Of a stretch of DNA of 51,750 bases, positions 22,499 to 33,160 are shown piece after piece (positions within the stretch are counted from its first letter, which is position 1; each line of letters starts with the position of its first letter). Source of the DNA: Bacteroidales bacterium (GTDB lineage: Bacteria; Bacteroidota; Bacteroidia; Bacteroidales; UBA932). The stretch spans positions 1-51,750 of the forward strand of contig JAGCCX010000082.1 in assembly GCA_017651465.1 (NCBI GenBank), given 5' to 3'. Below the pieces are notes generated by a model that worked only from the letters and a program-made list of their open reading frames with translations, did no database searches and was not told the DNA's origin. Position numbers and translations under genes: made by a program.

Positions 22499-22780
22499 AT
22501 GCTTTTTTTTAGGAAGAATCGTACTCGCAAAGAACTTATAGAAAAAATAAAAAAAGAAGAACTTGATCTCTCTTCCGTATTCTCTGCGATTAATAATAGA
22601 GCCGAAGTGGACCAACTGTTTAAAAACTTATTGAGACGATGCCACCCGGATAGATTTGTTGATAATCCGGAAAAGAATGCTCTCGCTGAAGCCCTATTCA
22701 AGAAGGTAATGGCAAATAGTACTAATCTAGGTGTACTTAAAGAACTGGAAATAATAATAAAAAGGGACCTTGAGCCATGA
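22499..22780 (+). CDS. Small J-domain-like protein
   Basis: The 93-residue product (ATG at 22499; a GTG at 22493 is also in frame) contains LFKNLLRRCHPDRFVDNPEKN, which resembles helix II, the HPD loop and the start of helix III of a DnaJ J-domain. A Lys/Arg-rich helix precedes it. It lacks the Gly/Phe and zinc-finger regions of full DnaJ, so it would be a stand-alone or degenerate J protein that recruits Hsp70 (DnaK) to a specific partner. The stop codon overlaps the next gene's start (ATGA), so it is coupled to the zinc-ribbon protein, a possible partner. The HPD motif is directly visible; function is inference. Confidence 0.6.
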   Translation: MLFFRKNRTRKELIEKIKKEELDLSSVFSAINNRAEVDQLFKNLLRRCHPDRFVDNPEKNALAEALFKKVMANSTNLGVLKELEIIIKRDLEP

Positions 22781-23547
22781 TGTGCAAACTGTGTGGAAAA
22801 GAATTTGGGGATGGCGAAATCTGTCAGCACTGTGGCGCCGATAAAGTTTCGGCGCTTGGCGAGTTTAGCGGATACTCGATACCCAAGAAATCAACTAACG
22901 CTGAACCTTATTCAAGCGAGTACTGCTCTTCTTCTCATTCAGTATCTCCACGCATTGAGGATATCCCGTCTATGATTTGTTGGAAGTGCGGAGAGGTTAT
23001 TCCGGGGGATTCAAAATATTGTCCTGTTTGTGGAACTTTACTATTTGCGACCTGCCCCAAGTGTGGGCATATGTATTCTGCAAAGTATTCTATTTGCAAC
23101 CAATGCGGGACGAATCGTGAAGAGCTCAAAAAGGCAAAGGATGATAGGAATTATAATGACGAATTACAAAAGCAGAGGCAGAAAGAAGCGCTTCGTCAAA
23201 CAGAGAGAGAAAAGCCCGCCCATTTACTGGCGGTTGAGAATAGTAAAAAGGCAATGACTTCAGAACTGAGGCTAAGCAAAATCTTTGATAAAGTCTATAA
23301 TTACATCAAGGAAATGGCCGTCTATTTCGAGTTAAATTCTTCCTTTATCAACTTAGCGCCTACGGTAAAGATTCACTATCTGGAGAGTTATGTCATTAAT
23401 CATTATCCAATAGATGCCCGAGTAGAAACAGTCGTGCAGGCCATTATTAGAGATAAAACATATTGGTGTAGAAGAGACTGTCTTAATGAGGAAGCACTTG
23501 AGGCAGAGTGTATAAATGCGATTCTATATGTTCACGGGGAGATGTAG
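22777..23547 (+). CDS. Zinc-ribbon protein with helical C-terminal domain
   Basis: The 256-residue protein has several Cys pairs: MCKLCGKEF..ICQHCG at the N-terminus, then ICWKCGEVIPGDSKYCPVCG and CPKCGHMY..SICNQCG around residues 68-112. These give at least three zinc-ribbon modules. A charged helical linker rich in Lys, Gln and Glu follows, then a C-terminal domain of about 100 residues (LSKIFDKVYNYIKEMAVYFEL..) that is not recognised. It begins inside the stop codon of the J-like gene. The N-terminal 120 residues are closely paralogous to gene 23646, but the C-terminal parts differ. No signal peptide is seen. A role as an adaptor for proteins or nucleic acids is possible. Confidence 0.7.
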   Translation: MMCKLCGKEFGDGEICQHCGADKVSALGEFSGYSIPKKSTNAEPYSSEYCSSSHSVSPRIEDIPSMICWKCGEVIPGDSKYCPVCGTLLFATCPKCGHMYSAKYSICNQCGTNREELKKAKDDRNYNDELQKQRQKEALRQTEREKPAHLLAVENSKKAMTSELRLSKIFDKVYNYIKEMAVYFELNSSFINLAPTVKIHYLESYVINHYPIDARVETVVQAIIRDKTYWCRRDCLNEEALEAECINAILYVHGEM

Positions 23548-23645
23548 TCCCGCCCATTAATCGGTTATTGATTTCTACAACTAAAGCCAACAACACAATA
23601 TGTTGAACTAATCTGGTATACATGACGAAATAGGAATATATAATC

Positions 23646-24179
23646 ATGACTTGCAATAAATGTGGAAAAGAATTCGGCTCTGGTGATACTTGCCAGCACT
23701 GCGGAGCGGACAAGGTTGGTGCTCTAGGCGAGTTCAATGGATATCCAGAGCGAGGAGGAGCATCCCATAATATGTCATCATCTCCTGGAACTCCTCACAT
23801 TGATACCCTCTCGACTTCCATTTGTTGGAAATGTGGAGAAATTATTCCAAGAGATTCGGAGTATTGTCCATTTTGCGGAGAACAACTATTCGTTAGTTGC
23901 CCTAAATGTGGGCATAGATATTCTGCACAGTATCCTAATTGTAATAAGTGTGGAACAAATCGAGAGCAACACCTTAAACGACTAAAAGAGCAGAAGGAAG
24001 AAGAAGAGAGACAAAGGAAGAAGGAAGAAGACGTACGTTGTCAAGAAGAGTTACAAAAACTGAAAGAAAGGAGCGCGCAGCGAAGTGCTAATTGGTTTTT
24101 ATTTGTTTTCTTTGGTTTATTTACACTATGGCTAATACTTTCTTCATCAGAATGGTTTCCAATTCTTTTCGGTAAATAA
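23646..24179 (+). CDS. Zinc-ribbon membrane-anchored protein, paralogue of gene 22777
   Basis: Residues 1-110 align closely with the upstream neighbour: the CNKCGKEFGSGDTCQHCGADKV start, ALGEFNGY, ICWKCGEIIP..YCPFCGEQL and CPKCGHRYSAQ..NKCGTNRE are shared. After this the protein has a highly charged coiled coil (EQKEEEERQRKKEEDVRCQEE, cut here to its pattern) and a C-terminal membrane helix (WFLFVFFGLFTLWLILSSS). The zinc ribbons should therefore face the cytoplasm while the tail sits in the membrane. Duplication of the zinc-ribbon head with two different tails suggests paired components of one system, one soluble and one membrane-bound. Confidence 0.72.
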   Translation: MTCNKCGKEFGSGDTCQHCGADKVGALGEFNGYPERGGASHNMSSSPGTPHIDTLSTSICWKCGEIIPRDSEYCPFCGEQLFVSCPKCGHRYSAQYPNCNKCGTNREQHLKRLKEQKEEEERQRKKEEDVRCQEELQKLKERSAQRSANWFLFVFFGLFTLWLILSSSEWFPILFGK

Positions 24180-24198
24180 ATAACATCTAATATTGCTC

Positions 24199-25170
24199 AT
24201 GAATACTTTCTTAAAAACTATTGCGAACAGTCTTCCTCTTGCTTTTGAAGGAAAGCTTTCTTTTTATGCGTTCATTCAACAGCAGTTTACTCAATATGAG
24301 ATTGATTTGTCCCATCTTCCTGCTGAACAATTAGATTTACTTTTGCAAGAATCTGGAGAATTAAAAGGAAATCCGACAAAAAGAAGGTTTATTAGTTTAA
24401 TTTCTAATATACACAAGCAGTGTTTATCTATCCTTGCTGACTCATACAATGGGGATCTTTATTCTTCATTAATCAAACTAACCCGATTACTTACATCTAG
24501 TTCCGCAATAGGTCATCGCCTAAAGGATGTCCTTGCCAACTATTTTGTTTTACAACTTGACCCAAAACTTAAACTTTATCGTGGGCGTGATGAAAAAGAG
24601 CCTATCGAGGATTGCTGGAACCTTCCATTCAATCTTCGCGAGAAAGCCTCTAACGCAAGGTTTAACTTGACTGGAACTATTTGTATGTATTTGGCGAGTT
24701 CTGCTGATTGTTGTAGTTTAGAACTTGGAAATCATAAGCCAAAGCAAATACGATATATTCAAGAATTCCGACTTAAGCCTAATAGACACATATCATTGTT
24801 GGACCTAAGAATTCCAATGGATACGGAGATTGATGAGATGAACGCTTACGAAAAGTTTTGTTTCTTACTCCTCTATCCGTTCTATTGCTTATGTCTTTCA
24901 AAAGCGATGTATAATCACAATGATAGAAGTTTTTATGAAGAGTACCTTTTCTCGCAATTGTTCTTCAACATGCTTTTCCTTCAGAGAAATAATGACGTCC
25001 TATTCTTCGATGGAATAATTTATTCATCTGTCCATGATCGTTCTATGCAAAACATTGTTCTGCCAGCGAGATATGATGTGCGGAATAATGATGACACGAA
25101 TACCAAGAGTGCCTTTTTAAGGGAGCACTTAGAAGCAATCGCGCCACCTTTTGTTTATAAACAAAGCTAG
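24199..25170 (+). CDS. RES-domain family protein (putative NAD-degrading toxin fold)
   Basis: From the ATG at 24199 the product has 323 residues. An N-terminal helical region (about 1-115) precedes a RES-like domain: KLYRGRDEKEP (conserved Arg), LPFNLREKASNARFNLTG, CMYLASSADCCSLELG (Tyr, Ser and Glu positions) and FRLKPNRHISLLDLR. RES proteins in Xre-RES toxin-antitoxin modules break down NAD+. Here there is no adjacent Xre-type antitoxin, and the domain has an N-terminal helical extension, so it may be a RES protein of another kind. It follows the zinc-ribbon membrane protein by 19 bp and has the same AT-rich composition. The family call is from motif reading, not from a search. Confidence 0.68.
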   Translation: MNTFLKTIANSLPLAFEGKLSFYAFIQQQFTQYEIDLSHLPAEQLDLLLQESGELKGNPTKRRFISLISNIHKQCLSILADSYNGDLYSSLIKLTRLLTSSSAIGHRLKDVLANYFVLQLDPKLKLYRGRDEKEPIEDCWNLPFNLREKASNARFNLTGTICMYLASSADCCSLELGNHKPKQIRYIQEFRLKPNRHISLLDLRIPMDTEIDEMNAYEKFCFLLLYPFYCLCLSKAMYNHNDRSFYEEYLFSQLFFNMLFLQRNNDVLFFDGIIYSSVHDRSMQNIVLPARYDVRNNDDTNTKSAFLREHLEAIAPPFVYKQS

Positions 25171-25460
25171 TACCTTGTTACATCTAATTCTTACTTTTTA
25201 TAACGAAATGGTTTCTGGAATTCCACGCGTGACGAACATGGCAGTTTGTTTTTTGTGCTTCAATTGGGGAACAGCGTTAAATTAAGTTTCTTAGTGAGGA
25301 AATAACCTTGATGATTCGTCTCGTAAGGGGGTAGGTGATTATGCGCAATACTTAGACGTGCCTACTGAATGTAGGTAATAGGGGCAGACAGTCCAAAATG
25401 CAATAGTCGTATTACAATTATTGGTTAGCATTAGGAGCGCGAAAGAAAAACAGAAGTATA
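25171..25460. other. Intergenic region without recognised feature
   Basis: No open frame with coding character is visible on either strand. A small stem CCTAC-tgaat-GTAGG (25361-25375) is present. No TAnnTTTG box with a matching TTG was found, so the promoter of the WG-repeat gene is not identified. Confidence 0.5.
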
Positions 25461-26849
25461 ATGGTTAAAACTCATAAAGTTGTTCATATCAACGATTGTT
25501 CAGTTAACGGGTATGTGAAATGCCCGGCGTGCCGTGGTAGTGTCCCTGTTAATCAGAAATATTGTACGTGCTGTGGGGAATATGTCAATTATAAGTATAA
25601 CTATAATGTACTTGCGAAATGGGATCTCGATCTCTTCAACAATTCTCTTGGCGACATAAAGAATGGTTTAGTTGAATATTCTAAAAATATAAGTGGAGAT
25701 GACAAGCCCGGGTGGAATGCATATGATTTAGAATATGGAAGAAGTGTAATCCCAGAGCCTTATACATCTTATGATCACCGCTATTATGAAGCCCCCGGGG
25801 TCTTTATTGTTTGCCATTCGCAGATGTTTGAGGGTGGATATGGAATTCTAGATAGATATGGGAACACCATTCTGGCAGCACGATTTGATAGAATTGATAT
25901 TCTTGATTCAAAGGGCTATTTCGTTGTCAAGAAAGAGGGAAAGGTAGGCGTATGCGCGCTAACTCGTGAACTTATCATCCCTTTTGAATACGATTTGATA
26001 AAACCTTCGTCTATTTCTAACAATAATTATTTTATTGTAAGAAAGGACAATAAATATGGTATGATAGATTTTGGAAATCTGGTTGTCGTCCCTATTGAAT
26101 TCGATGATGTCGGTGAATATAGTGAAGGCTTTATAGTAATTCAAAAAGAAAAGAAATGGGGGTATTACTGCCATAAAACAAAAGAGATTAAGATCCCTTT
26201 TCGTTTCGATAAAGCAGATAAGTTTAAGGACGGCTGCTCAAAAGTTGTTCTAGGTGGCACGGAGTTGTATATAGACGAAAACGGCTTCCCGACACTACCG
26301 AAGGGATATGGAGAGAAAGAGGTAATAGAAAATGGAAGGGTAGTGATTCGTGGCATAGACGGGCAAATTGTCCGTCGTCGCATTTTTGATCCGACAATTT
26401 GGAGACAAGATATACGTTCATATAAAGTCAACGACAAGGAAGGCGCCATTACACCCGAAGGTTATTTTGTCATTTCCCCCGAATACGATTCCCTCCTTGT
26501 TCTGGAGAGCAACTTATGTGTAGTAAAGAAAGATGGGAAATGTGGTGTTATTACACACAAGGGGTATTCTGTGCTTCCGTTAGAGTATTCGGATGTCTGG
26601 GTTGATGAAGGTCTTATTCGTATTTCTGGCCCTAATTATCCGGGGAGGTATTCCTTTGTGGTTTCAGGCTATATTGATAGGAATGGTAATGTTATAGTGC
26701 CTCAAGAGTATATGTGGCTCGGACATTTTCAAGAAGGGCTATGCCTCTATGAAGGCCCTAGAGGACAACAGTGTGGTATTATGGATAAATTTGGCAATTA
26801 TGTTGAATATCATCCTCTCTCTAAGGATGGTAAATGGCAGTTAGCATAA
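25461..26849 (+). CDS. WG-repeat protein with N-terminal zinc ribbon
   Basis: The 462-residue protein begins with a treble Cys motif (KCPACRGSVPVNQKYCTCCG, residues about 20-39), a zinc ribbon. The rest is a series of WG-type repeats recognised by their pattern: YGILDRYGNTILAARFDRID, VGVCALTRELIIPFEYDLI, YGMIDFGNLVVVPIEFDDV, WGYYCHKTKEIKIPFRFDKA, CGVITHKGYSVLPLEYSDV and CGIMDKFGN. WG repeats form beta-rich scaffolds of unknown function, common in Bacteroidota. No signal peptide is visible, so it is probably cytoplasmic. The zinc-ribbon head echoes genes 22777 and 23646. The next gene begins 8 bp downstream, so read-through into the caspase operon is likely. Confidence 0.82.
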   Translation: MVKTHKVVHINDCSVNGYVKCPACRGSVPVNQKYCTCCGEYVNYKYNYNVLAKWDLDLFNNSLGDIKNGLVEYSKNISGDDKPGWNAYDLEYGRSVIPEPYTSYDHRYYEAPGVFIVCHSQMFEGGYGILDRYGNTILAARFDRIDILDSKGYFVVKKEGKVGVCALTRELIIPFEYDLIKPSSISNNNYFIVRKDNKYGMIDFGNLVVVPIEFDDVGEYSEGFIVIQKEKKWGYYCHKTKEIKIPFRFDKADKFKDGCSKVVLGGTELYIDENGFPTLPKGYGEKEVIENGRVVIRGIDGQIVRRRIFDPTIWRQDIRSYKVNDKEGAITPEGYFVISPEYDSLLVLESNLCVVKKDGKCGVITHKGYSVLPLEYSDVWVDEGLIRISGPNYPGRYSFVVSGYIDRNGNVIVPQEYMWLGHFQEGLCLYEGPRGQQCGIMDKFGNYVEYHPLSKDGKWQLA

Positions 26850-26856
26850 ATCTTGT

Positions 26857-27525
26857 ATGAATCATGATAATCATATACTGCGTTCTCTTATAGTTCCTCT
26901 ATTCTTACCTTTTTCTTTTGTAGTGGCAGCTCAACCCGCCATGCACTTCCGGAACATTCCCTTCGGTGAGCCGCTAAAGGCGACGACTGCGCAGTTCAAG
27001 CAGCAGGGGTTCAAGCTTGTCAAGACACAGGCCAAGGAGGACAGCCTGTTTTATGGCCGCCACAAGGAGGAGTTCCTGCTTGGAGAACTTGAAGGATACC
27101 CGACCGTCATCCACCTGGAGGCGAGTGCAAAGACTCAGACCGTGTTCCAGATGGATGTCATCTACCGGGAGTGCATAGACGAGGACGAAGCTGTTGAGTT
27201 GGCCAGTCGTTTGGCAGCAGACGAGAAAGCTAAATCCAAATACTACACGTGGGAATCTAATCAAATCGGTATGGGGTTGGTGGAGATACCGGACAGGAAG
27301 GGCCGGCTGACAAAATATGTGGCAAGCCCCGTCATCCAGGTATCACACCGTTTTTACAATAGCGAAGACCATAACCGACAATCTTACTTTGGCTGTGCAA
27401 TCCTTACCATTTGGAACTTGATGATGGGACACGAGTACATAGTAGAAGTGCATTACTATGATCAGAAGGCAGCTGCGCTTGCTGAGGCTGAAGGAGGCGG
27501 ACGCTGGGCCGGGAAACTGCAATGA
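26857..27525 (+). CDS. Secreted hypothetical protein coupled to caspase
   Basis: The 222-residue protein starts with a Sec signal (LIVPLFLPFSFVVAAQ, cleavage likely near residue 25) followed by MHFRNIPFGEPLKATTAQFKQQGF and a mixed alpha/beta domain. It is not recognised as a named family. Its 3' end overlaps the caspase start by 4 nt (ATGA), so the two are translationally coupled and are likely partners; it could be an inhibitor, substrate or chaperone of the caspase. The GC content rises abruptly after the signal-peptide region, which marks a change from the AT-rich block upstream. Confidence 0.65.
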   Translation: MNHDNHILRSLIVPLFLPFSFVVAAQPAMHFRNIPFGEPLKATTAQFKQQGFKLVKTQAKEDSLFYGRHKEEFLLGELEGYPTVIHLEASAKTQTVFQMDVIYRECIDEDEAVELASRLAADEKAKSKYYTWESNQIGMGLVEIPDRKGRLTKYVASPVIQVSHRFYNSEDHNRQSYFGCAILTIWNLMMGHEYIVEVHYYDQKAAALAEAEGGGRWAGKLQ

Positions 27526-28403
27526 AAAGGCTTACAACAATAATCTTATTTCTGTCTTTGACCATCCTCGCAGGGGGTGCAACCAGGCGGGCGCTACTTG
27601 TTATTATAGGCGATTACCCGTCAGGGTCGGGTTGGAACAGTCTGGCGAGCCACAACGACAAGGCGATTCTTCTTAAGATGCTGGATCGCAACGGATTCCA
27701 CCCTGAAGATATTGTCTGCCTGGAGGATGCGGATGCGACTTACAGCGGCATCATCGAAGCTCTCAGGCTATTAAAGGAACAGGCGTGCTCGGGAGACCAA
27801 ATCTACATCCATTTCAGTTGCCACGGGCAGCAGATTACCGATATTGACGGCGATGAAGTTCTACGTGACTTCAATGACCACTACGACGAAGCTATTGTTC
27901 CATATGATGCTGCCATAGCGTACAATTGGAACGGCTATAAAGGAGAGCATCATCTTACCGATGATGTTTTAAGTCAACATATGAGCGCCATCCAGGATGC
28001 TTTGGGAAAGAACGGCCGCTTGCTCCTTGTTGTTGATGCCTGCCATAGCGGAGGTGTGCAAAGGGCTAAATGCGAAGATAAAGCTCCACATCGCGGTACA
28101 TACGATAGTTTCAAGCTACCATTAACCGGGAGGCCCCTGTCGCAAAACAATGTTACGGAAACTTGGATTACTCTCAGTGCTTGTAAGTCATTCCAGACCA
28201 ATTACGAGGTAGAAGTGGACGGAATTCGTTACGGCCGCCTTACATATACCATATCTCAGGTTCTCTGCGCAGGAATAAATGCAGAGAAGCTTGAGAAAGA
28301 GATAAAACGTGTATATAATTCACTGCCAATGCCAGCAAGAAAACATCAGACCCCGGAACTATCTGCCCCCTCTTCATTAATGCACAAAACTATCTTCAAA
28401 TGA
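27522..28403 (+). CDS. Secreted caspase-family (C14) peptidase
   Basis: The 293-residue product has an N-terminal hydrophobic signal (LTTIILFLSLTILAGGA) and then a caspase/metacaspase p20-like fold: RALLVIIGDYP, NDKAILLKMLDRNGF, YIHFSCHGQQ with catalytic His101, and LLLVVDACHSGG with catalytic Cys174. The substrate-binding part with YDEAIVPYDA and TETWITLSACKSFQTNYEV follows. Bacterial caspases generally cut after basic residues and often need calcium; specificity cannot be read here. Export to the periplasm is unusual for caspase systems linked to cell death, where the peptidase normally stays in the cytoplasm. The start overlaps gene 26857 and the end overlaps the ECF sigma gene, each by ATGA. 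Together with the CHAT gene it suggests a two-protease operon. Confidence 0.88.
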   Translation: MKRLTTIILFLSLTILAGGATRRALLVIIGDYPSGSGWNSLASHNDKAILLKMLDRNGFHPEDIVCLEDADATYSGIIEALRLLKEQACSGDQIYIHFSCHGQQITDIDGDEVLRDFNDHYDEAIVPYDAAIAYNWNGYKGEHHLTDDVLSQHMSAIQDALGKNGRLLLVVDACHSGGVQRAKCEDKAPHRGTYDSFKLPLTGRPLSQNNVTETWITLSACKSFQTNYEVEVDGIRYGRLTYTISQVLCAGINAEKLEKEIKRVYNSLPMPARKHQTPELSAPSSLMHKTIFK

Positions 28404-28975
28404 TTGACTACTGGATAAAAAGGATTGCTGCCGGCGATTTATCTGCTTTCGAGCAGGTTTACGAGACATACAAGGGCCCATTTATCCGGCTGTTCCGCGC
28501 AAATCAGGGTCTTTGCACTGCAGATGCCTTGGATTTATACACTGATGCCTGCACGGCATTATTCAACAATATCCATACCGGCAGGCTGACTGAGTGGAAA
28601 CATGGCGGAGGTGAATTTCAGACGTATATCAATAAAATCGGTCTGAACATTTTGTTCAACAAGCGGCGCAAGCAGCAGCCGCCTTTAGTGTATGATACGG
28701 ACAAAATTCTAAATTCCAAGGAGTTAGAAGATGAGTATGATGAAGAACGTGGGGCTATGTTGAAGTTGATTCGCACTGATGTTGACCAGATGCCCTATCC
28801 CTGCAACAAGCTGCTGAACTTGACCAGCTTCGAGAAAAAGAGCTATCAAGAAGTTGCCGTCATTATGCATTATGCCAGCGCAGAAACAGTTGGCACACAA
28901 CGCTCCCGCTGCTTCAAAAAGCTAAGAGACTTCGTAAAAAAACAATTTAAAGACCTTGGGTACTTATATGAATAA
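28400..28975 (+). CDS. ECF-type RNA polymerase sigma factor
   Basis: This 191-residue protein has the region 2-like start IAAGDLSAFEQVYETYKGPFIRLFR and NKIGLNILFNKRRKQQ. A C-terminal region 4-like HTH follows (FEKKSYQEVAVIMHYASAET..RSRCFKKLRDFV). Such sigma factors direct RNA polymerase to a small regulon and are held by an anti-sigma factor. The gene begins 4 nt inside the caspase gene and overlaps the next gene by 8 nt, so caspase, sigma and anti-sigma should be made together. It may control this operon and unlinked genes. The long linker between regions 2 and 4 (LVYDTDKILNSKELEDEYDE) is acidic. Confidence 0.85.
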   Translation: MIDYWIKRIAAGDLSAFEQVYETYKGPFIRLFRANQGLCTADALDLYTDACTALFNNIHTGRLTEWKHGGGEFQTYINKIGLNILFNKRRKQQPPLVYDTDKILNSKELEDEYDEERGAMLKLIRTDVDQMPYPCNKLLNLTSFEKKSYQEVAVIMHYASAETVGTQRSRCFKKLRDFVKKQFKDLGYLYE

Positions 28976-29489
28976 AGAAGATTTCAATCTGGACGAAATG
29001 CTGGAGTGCGCAGTCCGGGAAAAAGGCGCACGGGAATACTTGCAGCGCGTTGAAGCTCGAAACAGGAGAAGACGCAGGCATTGGATTACTGCAAGTTACA
29101 GCTTTGCCGCCTGCCTGGTACTCATTGCTGCTGGAGGCTGGACGATTGGTCATAAAACACAAGTCGCCGGCTATGCCTTCGACCCTGTAGCAGGTCAGAT
29201 GGGCGGTTCTGAAATCACTGCCCTCATGCAGGAAAAGAGGATTAAGGAGGCTCTTGTCAAGATTGAGGATGCGCGGGAGCAACTCAATCGCGAGATTGAT
29301 GATCCCTCGTCAACAGACCCCGATTATCTGATTCAACTGGAAGCAGACCGGCAGGAACTTGATCTCCTGAGCGCCGTGTGCGCGATGCGTCAGGGACGGT
29401 ATTTCAAGGCTCGCCGCATTCTTAAAGAGATAGCGCGCAACGAAGGCGCTTATGCCGAGGAGGCTCAGTCACTGCTGGATTCTTTCTAA
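28968..29489 (+). CDS. Putative membrane-anchored anti-sigma factor with TPR-like C-terminus
   Basis: The real start is the ATG at 28968 (MNKEDFNLDEMLECAV), 8 nt inside the sigma gene, giving 173 residues. A short cytoplasmic N-terminal segment (1-38, ending in the basic RNRRRRRHW) could hold the sigma factor. One transmembrane helix (about 39-61, TASYSFAACLVLIAAGGWTI) follows, then a periplasmic helical part with TPR-like features (EALVKIEDAREQL, LLSAVCAMRQGRYFKARRIL). The gene order, after an ECF sigma gene, fits an anti-sigma factor, but the N-terminal part lacks the classic zinc-binding anti-sigma motif. A periplasmic signal, perhaps cleavage by the linked proteases, might release the sigma factor. 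Confidence 0.65.
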   Translation: MNKEDFNLDEMLECAVREKGAREYLQRVEARNRRRRRHWITASYSFAACLVLIAAGGWTIGHKTQVAGYAFDPVAGQMGGSEITALMQEKRIKEALVKIEDAREQLNREIDDPSSTDPDYLIQLEADRQELDLLSAVCAMRQGRYFKARRILKEIARNEGAYAEEAQSLLDSF

Positions 29490-29490
29490 T

Positions 29491-30723
29491 ATGGTCAAAC
29501 AGTTACTCGTTCTCATTTTGCTATTCTTTCCGGTATTGGCTTTCGGCCAACTCCGAAAGAATGAGGTGGCAATTGAGTTTAACTATTCGGAAGGGGAGTA
29601 TTCAGCATCGGTCCGGCGAGGAGGGCAAAAAATTTCAACCACCGTTGTACTAGGGAATGGCAGTGAGATTGACGCACTGGCTAAAAATGCGGCGTTGTAC
29701 GACAACGCTTATTCCCGACAGGCCTATGACTTGATACTGACGCCTTTAGTTCATCTGCTCAGACATGGAGACAAGGTCATTTTCTCTCCAGCAGGCGAAT
29801 TACATTTTATTAATCTTGAGGCCTTGACTGACGAAAGAGGACAGCGGTGTTTTGAAAAGTATAAGTTTTATCGAGTATCGGATATTACCACTGGAGTGAA
29901 CGATAATTCCCTTAATCCTATTTATACACGTTTTGTCCTTTACGGTGGAATGAATTATCTGGCGGAGCCTTCTGCAATGAATCAGCACTGCTGGTTCCTT
30001 CACTCTGGCCCAAGACAAGAATTGTTTGAAGATTGTGACGGCTGGGCGTCGGATGGTATTGATTTTGGCGCAGCTGAAGACGGAACACGAGCCGGTTTTT
30101 CCACCCTCCCCAACAGCCGGAATGAGATAAAATTTATATTTAACCTTAATAAGTGGAATGCTGTTGTAAATACCGGCCCCGAGGCCACAGAGGAGCGTTT
30201 CAGACAAGATGTCCGTCGCAATGAGCCCTATGTTATGCACATCTCCTCCCATTCGTTCAAGACTGTCCGTCCGCCACAAAAGGCTTTTGATCTCACGGAT
30301 GAAGAAATAGCTTACAAAAGTTGTGGCCTGTTGTTTTCTGGCGCAGGCCACACAATCAATGGAGAGAGGCTCCCATTTAAACTTAATGATGGATTACTTT
30401 ATGCTGAGGAGATAGCCAGACTTGATATGCACAACTGCGAACTTGTGGTTATTGGTGCCTGCAATACTGCACTTGGCCGCATCTCTCAGGATGGCGTTGT
30501 TGGAATACAAAGCGCGTTCAAAAAGGCAGGAGCCAAGACGCTGTTGCTGACGCTATGGAGTGTGAATGATCGGGCAACATCTTTCTTTATGCAGCAGTTT
30601 TATCTCCATCTTTCCAAGGGAAAAAGCAAATACGAAGCATTCAGATGTGCCCGGCTAGATATGATCCTCAGCGAAGATTTCAACGACCCTGTTTACTGGG
30701 CACCATTTATTATGCTGGATTGA
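29491..30723 (+). CDS. Secreted CHAT-domain protease
   Basis: The start at 29491 (MVKQLLVLILLFFPVLAFGQ) gives a Sec signal and 410 residues. The CHAT fold is seen in the order RQAYDLILTPLVHLL, VIFSPAGELHFINLEALTD, RFVLYGGMNYL, LPNSRNEIKFI, PYVMHISSHSF with catalytic His254, and LVVIGACNTALGR with catalytic Cys324, followed by GIQSAFKKAGAKTLLLTLWSV. CHAT peptidases belong to the same clan as caspases. Long N-terminal TPR arrays are usual in bacterial CHAT proteins; this one lacks them and is exported. It starts 1 bp after the anti-sigma stop. A typical cytoplasmic TPR-CHAT role is therefore unlikely; periplasmic processing of envelope proteins or of the linked anti-sigma factor is possible. 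Confidence 0.85.
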   Translation: MVKQLLVLILLFFPVLAFGQLRKNEVAIEFNYSEGEYSASVRRGGQKISTTVVLGNGSEIDALAKNAALYDNAYSRQAYDLILTPLVHLLRHGDKVIFSPAGELHFINLEALTDERGQRCFEKYKFYRVSDITTGVNDNSLNPIYTRFVLYGGMNYLAEPSAMNQHCWFLHSGPRQELFEDCDGWASDGIDFGAAEDGTRAGFSTLPNSRNEIKFIFNLNKWNAVVNTGPEATEERFRQDVRRNEPYVMHISSHSFKTVRPPQKAFDLTDEEIAYKSCGLLFSGAGHTINGERLPFKLNDGLLYAEEIARLDMHNCELVVIGACNTALGRISQDGVVGIQSAFKKAGAKTLLLTLWSVNDRATSFFMQQFYLHLSKGKSKYEAFRCARLDMILSEDFNDPVYWAPFIMLD

Positions 30724-30775: not shown

Positions 30776-31516
30776 TTATTGCAGAGGGAATCGAGGTTCA
30801 TTCGGGCGTGATCTTATGTAACGGAGTTGAGCCCTGATCCAGAAAGTATCAATAACTGGAGATGCTGGCAGCACCAGGGCGAGTTGTAGGAGAGTGATAA
30901 GAAAGTTACATAGGTTGTTGGGCATAGGTGTGGCAAATGCTATATCATCGGTAATCAACTTATACGACCCCCATAGCAGAACGGCGACTCGCGGATCACT
31001 AGCACGGCGCCCTTTTTTGATGGGGACAGGTTCATCCAGACTTTTCAAAGCCGCGTTTAAATCAGCAATTCCTGATAGTTTTTCCGTTATGAATGGATCC
31101 AAAAATTCATTCATGAACCAATTTGAATAATTATTTATACGGATGTTGTTCTTAGCATTCCGTATAAAAATGGTCTCGCCGTCCCTGCTGCTTCTTCTGA
31201 GTTTGTAGAGGCGTAGATAATCCCTCTGTTTCATTTGCTCAAATAGTTCGTCAGTTTTTAGATCTCTTTGTAGCACCGGGCTTTCCAGGAGGCAACAGAC
31301 AAGCAAAAAGAGAGTATTAAGAAGTTGCTGATGCTGACGTGGGTCGTCTATCTTTTCGAAAGCCTTCAGCAAAGAGGCAGAATCCCAGGAGGCGTTAATA
31401 GTAATGCTTCCACCCTCAGTGCTCTTTAATTGTTGTGGAATAAGTGCATTGTTGATGCCATAATACTTATCAAGCGCGGCAAGCGCCGCTTGTCTCTCTT
31501 CTTGTGTCAGTGTCAT
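30776..31516 (-). CDS. Hypothetical protein, 246 residues
   Basis: The protein is not recognised. It appears soluble, largely helical, with no clear signal peptide. It has a central KRDYLRLYKLRRSSRDGETIF-like basic region (shown shortened here) and NYSNWFMNEFLDPFITEKL, then a hydrophobic stretch LCNFLITLLQLALVLPASPV. It lies convergent to the CHAT gene with 52 bp between them and divergent from gene 31749. One arm of a 12-bp inverted repeat pair is 21 bp upstream of its start. The long single open frame and the absence of a better frame on the other strand support a real gene. Confidence 0.6.
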   Translation of the reverse strand: MTLTQEERQAALAALDKYYGINNALIPQQLKSTEGGSITINASWDSASLLKAFEKIDDPRQHQQLLNTLFLLVCCLLESPVLQRDLKTDELFEQMKQRDYLRLYKLRRSSRDGETIFIRNAKNNIRINNYSNWFMNEFLDPFITEKLSGIADLNAALKSLDEPVPIKKGRRASDPRVAVLLWGSYKLITDDIAFATPMPNNLCNFLITLLQLALVLPASPVIDTFWIRAQLRYIRSRPNEPRFPLQ

Positions 31517-32218: not shown

Positions 32219-33160
32219 ATGTCCTTTTTCCATCAAGAGTTGGCCATAGACCTGGGGACGGCCAACACGGTGATATTCAAGGACGATAAGGTCGTGCTTG
32301 ACGAGCCCAGCATAATAGCAGTGGAGACAAAGACCGAGAAGCTTGTCGCCATTGGCGGCCAGGCGCAGTTGATAGAGGATCACACGCCGCCGCGGATCTA
32401 TACGGTGCGCCCGCTTATGAACGGTGTAATAGCTGACTATGATGCTGCGGAGAAGATGCTCACCGGCTTCATCCGCAAAGCAATCGGCCGCAGGGGGCGT
32501 TTCAAGCCGTCACTTAAGGTGGTAATAGGCATTCCCGGCGGTGGTACGCCGGTTGATATGCGTTCCATCAGGGACTCGTCCGAGCACGCCGGCGCCCACG
32601 ACGTTCACCTAATCTATGAGCCAATGGCATCGGCGATGGGCATAGGCATCGATGTCACCGCCCCCAACGGCAATATGATAGTCGATATCGGTGGTGGCAC
32701 GACGGAGATTGCTGTGATTTCTCTCGGCGGCATCGTGGAGTCGTCCAGCATCCACATAGCTGGCAACGAGATAACTACAGACATCATCGACTACCTGGGC
32801 CAGCAGGACAACATCAGCATCGGCCGCACCACAGCGGAGCAGATAAAGTTCGCAGTAGGTGCAGTGCTGCCGGAGCTGCCGCAGGAAGAAGAACCGGATG
32901 ATTTCTTCGTGGAGGGGAAGAACCTCGTGACCGCCCATCCGACCCGTGCCGCCATATCGTGCCGCGACATCGCCTGCTGCATCGACAAGACGATTTCCAA
33001 GATCGAGGGAGAGATTATCAAGGTCCTGCAACGTACACCGCCGGAGCTGTATTCCAACATCGTTAAGAACGGCATCTGGCTTGCCGGCGGCGGGTCGCTC
33101 CTTCGCGGCATCGCTCAGCGCTTCACCGACAAGGTCAACATCCAGTTCCGGGTGGCATAA
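32219..33160 (+). CDS. mreB: MreB paralogue ending at a premature in-frame stop
   Basis: The 313-residue product is a clear actin-like MreB: LAIDLGTANTVIF (phosphate 1), VVIGIPGGGTPVDMRSIRDSSE, MIVDIGGGTTEIAVISLGG (phosphate 2), EIIKVLQRTPPELYSNIV and GIWLAGGGSLLRGIA (adenosine loop). Homologues continue VAEDPL..V..GTG.AL; here the frame reads FRVA, then TAA at 33158, then 25 more codons in the same frame (DPLKAVARGT ... PFLMR) before TAA at 33236. A single G-to-T change turning GAA into TAA would explain it. The C-terminal helix of subdomain IA is lost unless the stop is read through. No mreC or mreD is adjacent, so this is probably a second copy. It could be dominant-negative, inactive, or a sequencing error. 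Confidence 0.88.
   Translation: MSFFHQELAIDLGTANTVIFKDDKVVLDEPSIIAVETKTEKLVAIGGQAQLIEDHTPPRIYTVRPLMNGVIADYDAAEKMLTGFIRKAIGRRGRFKPSLKVVIGIPGGGTPVDMRSIRDSSEHAGAHDVHLIYEPMASAMGIGIDVTAPNGNMIVDIGGGTTEIAVISLGGIVESSSIHIAGNEITTDIIDYLGQQDNISIGRTTAEQIKFAVGAVLPELPQEEEPDDFFVEGKNLVTAHPTRAAISCRDIACCIDKTISKIEGEIIKVLQRTPPELYSNIVKNGIWLAGGGSLLRGIAQRFTDKVNIQFRVA

Follow-up and report, generated by a model that had tools for sequence, protein, structure and literature searches.

A 51,750-nucleotide stretch of a Bacteroidales genome (GenBank assembly GCA_017651465.1, contig JAGCCX010000082.1, positions 1 to 51,750; hereafter the window) carries five tightly packed forward-strand genes, among them those for a caspase, an extracytoplasmic function (ECF) sigma factor, an anti-sigma and a CHAT protease. 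These four form a real module, which is conserved in Bacteroidota well beyond the window's genome and is carried by Bacteroidales bacteria, many from animal guts. Judged from its sequence, the locus would be best explained by a transmembrane proteolytic switch, a reading on which our confidence is evenly balanced. All five open reading frames (ORFs) were found where an earlier note on this DNA had placed them, and the ORF coordinates bear out the layout and the four joins that it described: ATGA at 27522-27525 (gene 1/caspase) and at 28400-28403 (caspase/sigma), an 8-nt overlap at 28968-28975 (sigma/anti-sigma) and a 1-nt gap at 29490 (anti-sigma/CHAT). The genes and the residues discussed below are as follows.

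26857..27525 (+), gene 1: 222 amino acids, fold unknown, signal-like start; a lineage-specific accessory
27522..28403 (+), caspase gene: 293 amino acids, predicted exported type I metacaspase-like protein (C14; PF00656)
27822..27824 (+), codon of the caspase catalytic His101, read from the sequence; conserved in 82/82 short relatives
28041..28043 (+), codon of the caspase catalytic Cys174, read from the sequence; conserved in 82/82 short relatives
28092..28097 (+), R191-G192, a conserved Arg-Gly after the catalytic Cys of the caspase
28400..28975 (+), sigma gene: 191 amino acids, divergent ECF sigma factor (TIGR02937)
28968..29489 (+), anti-sigma gene: 173 amino acids; short cytosolic part, one transmembrane (TM) segment and extracytoplasmic TPR-like tail
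29199..29201 (+), M78 codon of the window's anti-sigma, at the Arg position of the family; the two following Gly are kept
29491..30723 (+), CHAT gene: 410 amino acids, predicted exported short CHAT protease (PF12770)
30250..30252 (+), codon of the CHAT catalytic His254; conserved in 126/126 ungapped rows of 130
30460..30462 (+), codon of the CHAT catalytic Cys324; conserved in 124/125 ungapped rows of 130, the remaining row having X

In the proposed switch, the anti-sigma would hold the sigma factor at the membrane at rest, and its TPR tail would shield it from a site-2 protease. A signal from the envelope would then lead one of the clan CD proteases encoded there (the caspase, the CHAT protease, or one activating the other) to cut after a linker arginine of the anti-sigma and free the TPR tail; a site-2 protease would then cut within the membrane, and the sigma factor would activate its regulon, perhaps including the operon.

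To collect caspase relatives, we used an alignment of five sequences (A2), four of which had been selected next to sigma relatives, and took from this search the best 80 of 136 loci encoding a caspase relative. The 80 loci examined are the named loci plus the window, minus L070, which has no called caspase; some of their contigs end early. Judged by their record titles they belong to Bacteroidales or to other Bacteroidota, a placement that is presumed for some of the Candidatus names. At a distance of up to five genes from the caspase, 53 loci have a sigma factor, 57 an anti-sigma and 67 a CHAT; at least one partner is present in 77/80, all three in 41 and none in L036, L079 and L088. The co-occurrence check proposed by the earlier note therefore does not find these genes rarely together, and of its five-family unit the caspase, sigma, anti-sigma and CHAT recur, while gene 1 is present in only 7/80 loci.

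A second sample, drawn from 198 genomes of the order and leaving out the window's caspase, comprised the 20 best caspase matches. Seven of its eight short caspases (up to 360 amino acids) lie in stretches that also encode a sigma, anti-sigma or CHAT, although for two of the seven the partner is a weak match, and the eighth lies on a 3,984-base contig. Partners are present for 4 of the 12 long caspases (L133, with a weak sigma match, L134, L139 and L142) and for 3 of 20 weaker caspase matches (L149, L151 and L159). Across the 198 genomes, CHAT occurs in 68/70 with a strong match (E up to 1e-25) to the profile of A3, an alignment of 14 divergent anti-sigmas, versus 36/128 of the others; since the A3 seeds all come from CHAT stretches, the 68/70 follows in part from the choice of seeds, and the comparison does not control for descent. 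Thirteen caspase loci have no CHAT within five genes; nine of their genomes were searched, six of which encode a CHAT elsewhere, and no CHAT match was found in the other three (G542-G544). In these three genomes the anti-sigma Arg is present at L041 and L043, and the L072 stretch has no anti-sigma.

Mapped onto a tree of 120 sigmas, the caspase label needs 6 changes, against an average of 38 after shuffling. Secreted clan CD peptidases, for example gingipains, occur in Bacteroidales, and the two enzymes might be ordinary exported peptidases that process nutrient or surface proteins, their link to an unrelated ECF pair being fortuitous or one of convenience; however, the recurrence in 77/80 loci and the co-inheritance of caspase and sigma already disfavour this explanation, which we consider very improbable.

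The candidate cleavage site is a near-invariant Arg followed by a small residue. It stands some 25 residues from the membrane on the outer side, in an otherwise variable linker that joins the TM segment to the TPR tail, a position that would suit cutting by an Arg-specific protease. The site was first seen in an alignment of anti-sigmas encoded beside caspases and in another of anti-sigmas encoded beside CHATs without a caspase. Near-invariance in A3 is confined to four columns: M1, A48, the linker Arg (profile position 132) and A148. For the column counts, 80 further loci found with the A3 profile were added, giving 147 sequences (155 rows minus seven without the column and one duplicate) with R in 133, K in 4, M in 5, I in 2 and H, Q and Y in 1 each. 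A separate alignment of the 147 has R in 131, and the column ranks second in conservation among the 226 with an occupancy of 70% or more. Sorted by neighbourhood, Arg is present in 45/52 anti-sigmas with caspase and CHAT near, 5/6 with caspase only and 46/47 with CHAT only (a set including L070, a caspase locus whose caspase went uncalled), and the median distances from the TM end are 25-26 residues. The motif R[SGA] at 18-33 residues past the TM segment occurs in 103/125 family members versus 0/14 other TM proteins encoded downstream of sigmas, these controls being a mixed set that includes one caspase ORF. Outside the order, the linker residue is R in 19/22 and K in 1/22; the sole genome there without a CHAT match (G170, locus L279) has Thr at this position, a single case.

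A second protein, of about 235 amino acids and with a signal-like start, is encoded near the caspase in 16 loci and has a linker R-G in 16/16 rows, some of which are near-copies. This R-G precedes a domain resembling PPC (PF04151 at 21.8 bits, under the cut-off of 25.9), and a further conserved R-G lies within that domain, so that R-G alone is no proof.

Several observations weigh against cleavage at this Arg by the proteases of the locus. R is kept in 37/42 anti-sigmas with neither protease in the fetched stretch, and in L193 and L198, from incomplete genomes of the order without a CHAT match; the Arg may thus be structural or serve another protease. In the window's own clade, Met occupies the position in the window, L019, L020 and L075, with R in L021 and K in L022, which would mean that specificity is relaxed or shifted there, or that another site is used. 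In alignment A5 (15 members, two of them Met-bearing), the Arg column falls below 90%. The profile is itself biased, since it rewards Arg and nine of its 14 seeds, all from CHAT-containing stretches, were chosen for CHAT. Separase D2151 corresponds to Lys670 of the Craspase CHAT according to the relevant passages of PMC9729208, and this S1 Asp position aligns to Ser364 of the window's CHAT, which leaves Arg specificity of the CHAT unsupported. Finally, a G-versus-S difference after the Arg (44/53 caspase loci vs 19/84 elsewhere, Fisher 3e-12) was dropped as a sign of co-evolution, because the sigma tree leaves 2 to 5 independent pairs and the claim is confounded by descent. When residues tracking Met versus Arg/Lys were sought in the caspase and the CHAT, few clade-specific changes were found, mostly common to both groups and none explanatory. 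The periplasmic cascade cutting the anti-sigma that the earlier note had envisaged is partly supported: the conserved module, the signals and the Arg-small site favour it, and the Met of the window's own anti-sigma does not.

The persistence of Arg without either protease also favours the converse arrangement, in which the sigma/anti-sigma pair controls the proteases: caspase and CHAT would be envelope-stress outputs, a general site-1 protease (DegS-like) would cut the anti-sigma, and the conserved Arg would belong to that protease or be structural. The tight packing of the genes fits this explanation, as do a Trypsin_2-type protein recurring as a neighbour and the element AAAGGTAA[CT], which lies upstream of 8/58 caspase first genes (one on a duplicate contig) and of 14/217 module first genes versus 12/890 others; the element was chosen post hoc, the counts contain the duplicates L077/L130, and it is not used as proof. 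Conversely, the anti-sigma family is tied to CHAT by genome, though through a CHAT-seeded profile, the linker site suits clan CD enzymes with a basic P1 preference, and R-G recurs in a second linker within caspase loci. We regard such output control as doubtful, yet deserving of serious weight.

The caspase matches Pfam PF00656 (E 5.9e-14, 52.8 bits by hmmscan) and contains the p20 His-Cys dyad together with the acidic D172 ahead of Cys174 (D172 in 80/82 short relatives). The dyads named by the earlier note, His101/Cys174 in the caspase and His254/Cys324 in the CHAT, were both confirmed from the sequence and are conserved in relatives. Metacaspases make up 10/11 of the solved relatives retrieved by profile search, and the metacaspase group cuts after Arg/Lys, usually in a Ca2+-dependent manner, as described in passages of PMC4357240. 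R191-G192 is a possible autoprocessing site; it is conserved in short caspases (R 79/82, G 82/82) and frequent in long ones too (R 12/14, G 11/14), and is therefore not specific. The protein does not belong to NCBIfam EACC1-caspase NF047832 (26.6 bits vs cut-off 140). A whole-genome search with Pfam C14 found nothing in the genome of the window (G000), despite the 52.8 bits by hmmscan. As the C14 search of the phylum missed the window's caspase, its counts were not used and the alignment-based A2 search replaced it; counting such caspases by Pfam family may underestimate their number.

The CHAT protease matches Pfam PF12770 with E 1.4e-45 (156.4 bits vs a gathering score of 24) and is the sole CHAT match in its genome. 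A PDB search with the single CHAT sequence returned nothing at E 1. D360, in the sequence W-x-V-x-D, had been considered as the separase S1 Asp and was withdrawn, the Craspase paper placing that residue four positions further.

The sigma factor scores 44.0 bits against NCBIfam TIGR02937, barely above the cut-off of 42.9, and in Pfam has a sub-threshold region-4 match alone (E 0.25). In the fourth ORF there is a single TM segment, and TPR_19 is matched weakly (E 0.0017, below the cut-off). Its position in the operon, its topology and its family, in which the matches are weak, are the grounds for calling it an anti-sigma; it would be a single-pass anti-sigma with an extracytoplasmic domain adjoining an ECF sigma. 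NCBIfam 'antisigma' is matched by 9/14 members of A3 at E <=0.01 (best 2.1e-10), the window's own match having E 0.0094 and 16 bits vs the cut-off of 100. One TM segment beyond residue 45 was found in 48/56 anti-sigmas, and the TPR matches of the anti-sigma profile to solved chains start near position 143. A site-2 protease candidate is encoded in the window's genome (PF02163, E 3.4e-55); a PF02163 match is present in all 14 control genomes too, so this support is weak.

By eye, the N-termini of the products of genes 1, 2 and 5 resemble Sec signals. With a crude rule of our own, signals were called in 75/79 caspases, 63/73 CHATs and 7/7 gene-1 relatives, compared with 0/57 sigmas and 10/56 anti-sigmas, the last figure showing that the rule is imperfect. 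The signals that the earlier note had read on both proteases thus appear conserved, and the check for cytoplasmic proteases that it suggested brought no refutation. Its view that export of the CHAT is unusual was overstated: a hydrophobic N-terminus is present in 19/20 CHATs picked among the matches listed in genomes of the order, and exported CHATs therefore look common in Bacteroidales. Eight of these 20 lie beside a sigma/anti-sigma pair, five convergent with it (L169, L178, L180, L185 and L187), two divergent (L179 and L188) and one co-directional (L183, with the anti-sigma assigned by eye). N-terminal helices, possibly signals, on prokaryotic metacaspases have already been published, as passages of PMC3501461 show.

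The location of the proteases also bears on whether the locus is a conflict or cell-death module, in which exported proteases would attack own or foreign envelope proteins on infection or competition, with the sigma factor as arming switch. The PADLOC 'caspase' model matches the window's caspase (E 1.1e-11), a RES-domain ORF lies upstream, and parts of PMC8195603 discuss, as death or immunity systems, neighbourhoods in which an EACC2-caspase occurs together with an ECF sigma and a TPR protein. However, 0/9 other scanned proteins match PADLOC at E 0.1, and both proteases appear exported, which makes such a module improbable.

Anti-sigma proteolysis and CHAT-sigma switches are both known. In the type III-E CRISPR system, Csx29 (TPR-CHAT) cuts Csx30, which blocks sigma DNA binding, and passages of PMC10028731 support a model in which the cutting of Csx30 relieves the sigma block. 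Like Csx29/Csx30/CASP-sigma, the window's locus combines an ECF sigma and its inhibitor with a neighbouring CHAT protease; unlike it, the locus has apparently exported proteases, a membrane-spanning anti-sigma, an extra caspase and a linker Arg conserved in the anti-sigma family. A search of the window's genome (95.1% complete) with one RAMP-family model, PF03787, gave no match at E 0.001. With RseA/DegS/RseP, as covered in parts of PMC10202637, the locus shares a single-pass anti-sigma, an extracytoplasmic candidate site and a site-2 protease candidate, whereas its candidate site-1 proteases are operon-encoded clan CD cysteine proteases and its anti-sigma has a TPR tail and not the RseA domain. 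Likewise, the metacaspase-sigma70 operons already in print for other phyla, with Myxococcus among their carriers (PMC3501461), join a caspase homolog and a sigma factor in one operon, but the passages concerned give no anti-sigma or cleavage site, and the term CHAT was not found in PMC3501461. ECF54 neighbourhoods contain CHAT or other peptidases; according to passages of PMC8999054, with a Geodermatophilus example, ECF54 is proposed to act without an anti-sigma, whereas the window has an anti-sigma-like gene. The EACC1/EACC2 caspase systems also have an ECF sigma and a TPR protein near the caspase, with other accessory domains in the sections of PMC8195603 concerned.

Taking the transmembrane switch further, we tentatively suggest, at a confidence falling somewhat short of even, that the exported metacaspase and the separase-like CHAT may be dedicated site-1 proteases that set ECF sigma factors free by cutting a single conserved Arg-small bond in the extracytoplasmic linker of TPR-type anti-sigmas, a Bacteroidota-wide extracytoplasmic counterpart of the Csx29-Csx30-sigma switch with a signalling rather than a death role. 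If true, bacterial caspases and CHAT proteases would gain a transmembrane signalling role in gut bacteria, with a candidate substrate and bond named, and CRISPR-associated CHAT-sigma switches would be tied to a wider chromosomal system. Titles and abstract starts in the open-licence literature gave nothing, among the matches listed, on an exported caspase or CHAT acting on an anti-sigma; an earlier mention is possible.

Gene 1 is lineage-specific and stands outside the general module. Searches of Pfam, NCBIfam and PADLOC found nothing for it at the thresholds applied, and PDB searches returned weak matches alone (best E 0.026, mostly designed proteins). Its relatives are present in 6 other caspase loci and, among the 198 genomes of the order, in its own genome and in one further genome as a weak match.

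Other features recur around the caspase genes. The Trypsin_2-type protein has a signal-like start, and 11/13 members of its cluster keep that part (L028, L033, L035, L037, L042, L044, L047, L048, L049, L051 and L096; PF13365 at 1.3e-26 in L051), the exceptions being L021, which is without it, and L029, a fragment. Small proteins with an extremely Arg-rich tail, possibly a substrate or decoy of a basic-P1 protease, are encoded directly after the caspase in L045, L046, L048, L056 and L059. A AAAAGGTAAC-like element followed by a T-run, possibly an ECF promoter, lies upstream of caspase genes in L049, L058, L064, L071, L073, L077, L129 and L130, L077 and L130 being the same contig.

Within the window, the 5' neighbours at 22777-26849 (+) comprise zinc-ribbon proteins, the RES-domain ORF (PF08808, 2.4e-07) and a WG-repeat protein that ends 7 nt ahead of gene 1; a similar zinc-ribbon ORF is also found upstream in L020. 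On the 3' side, a 246-amino-acid unknown ORF at 30776-31516 (-), with a sub-threshold Pfam match, is convergent with the CHAT gene; counting the window, 6 loci of its clade have this ORF at the corresponding position. Further downstream, an MreB-like protein (PF06723, 6.4e-96) is encoded at 32219-33160 (+), flanked by small ORFs with signal-like starts.

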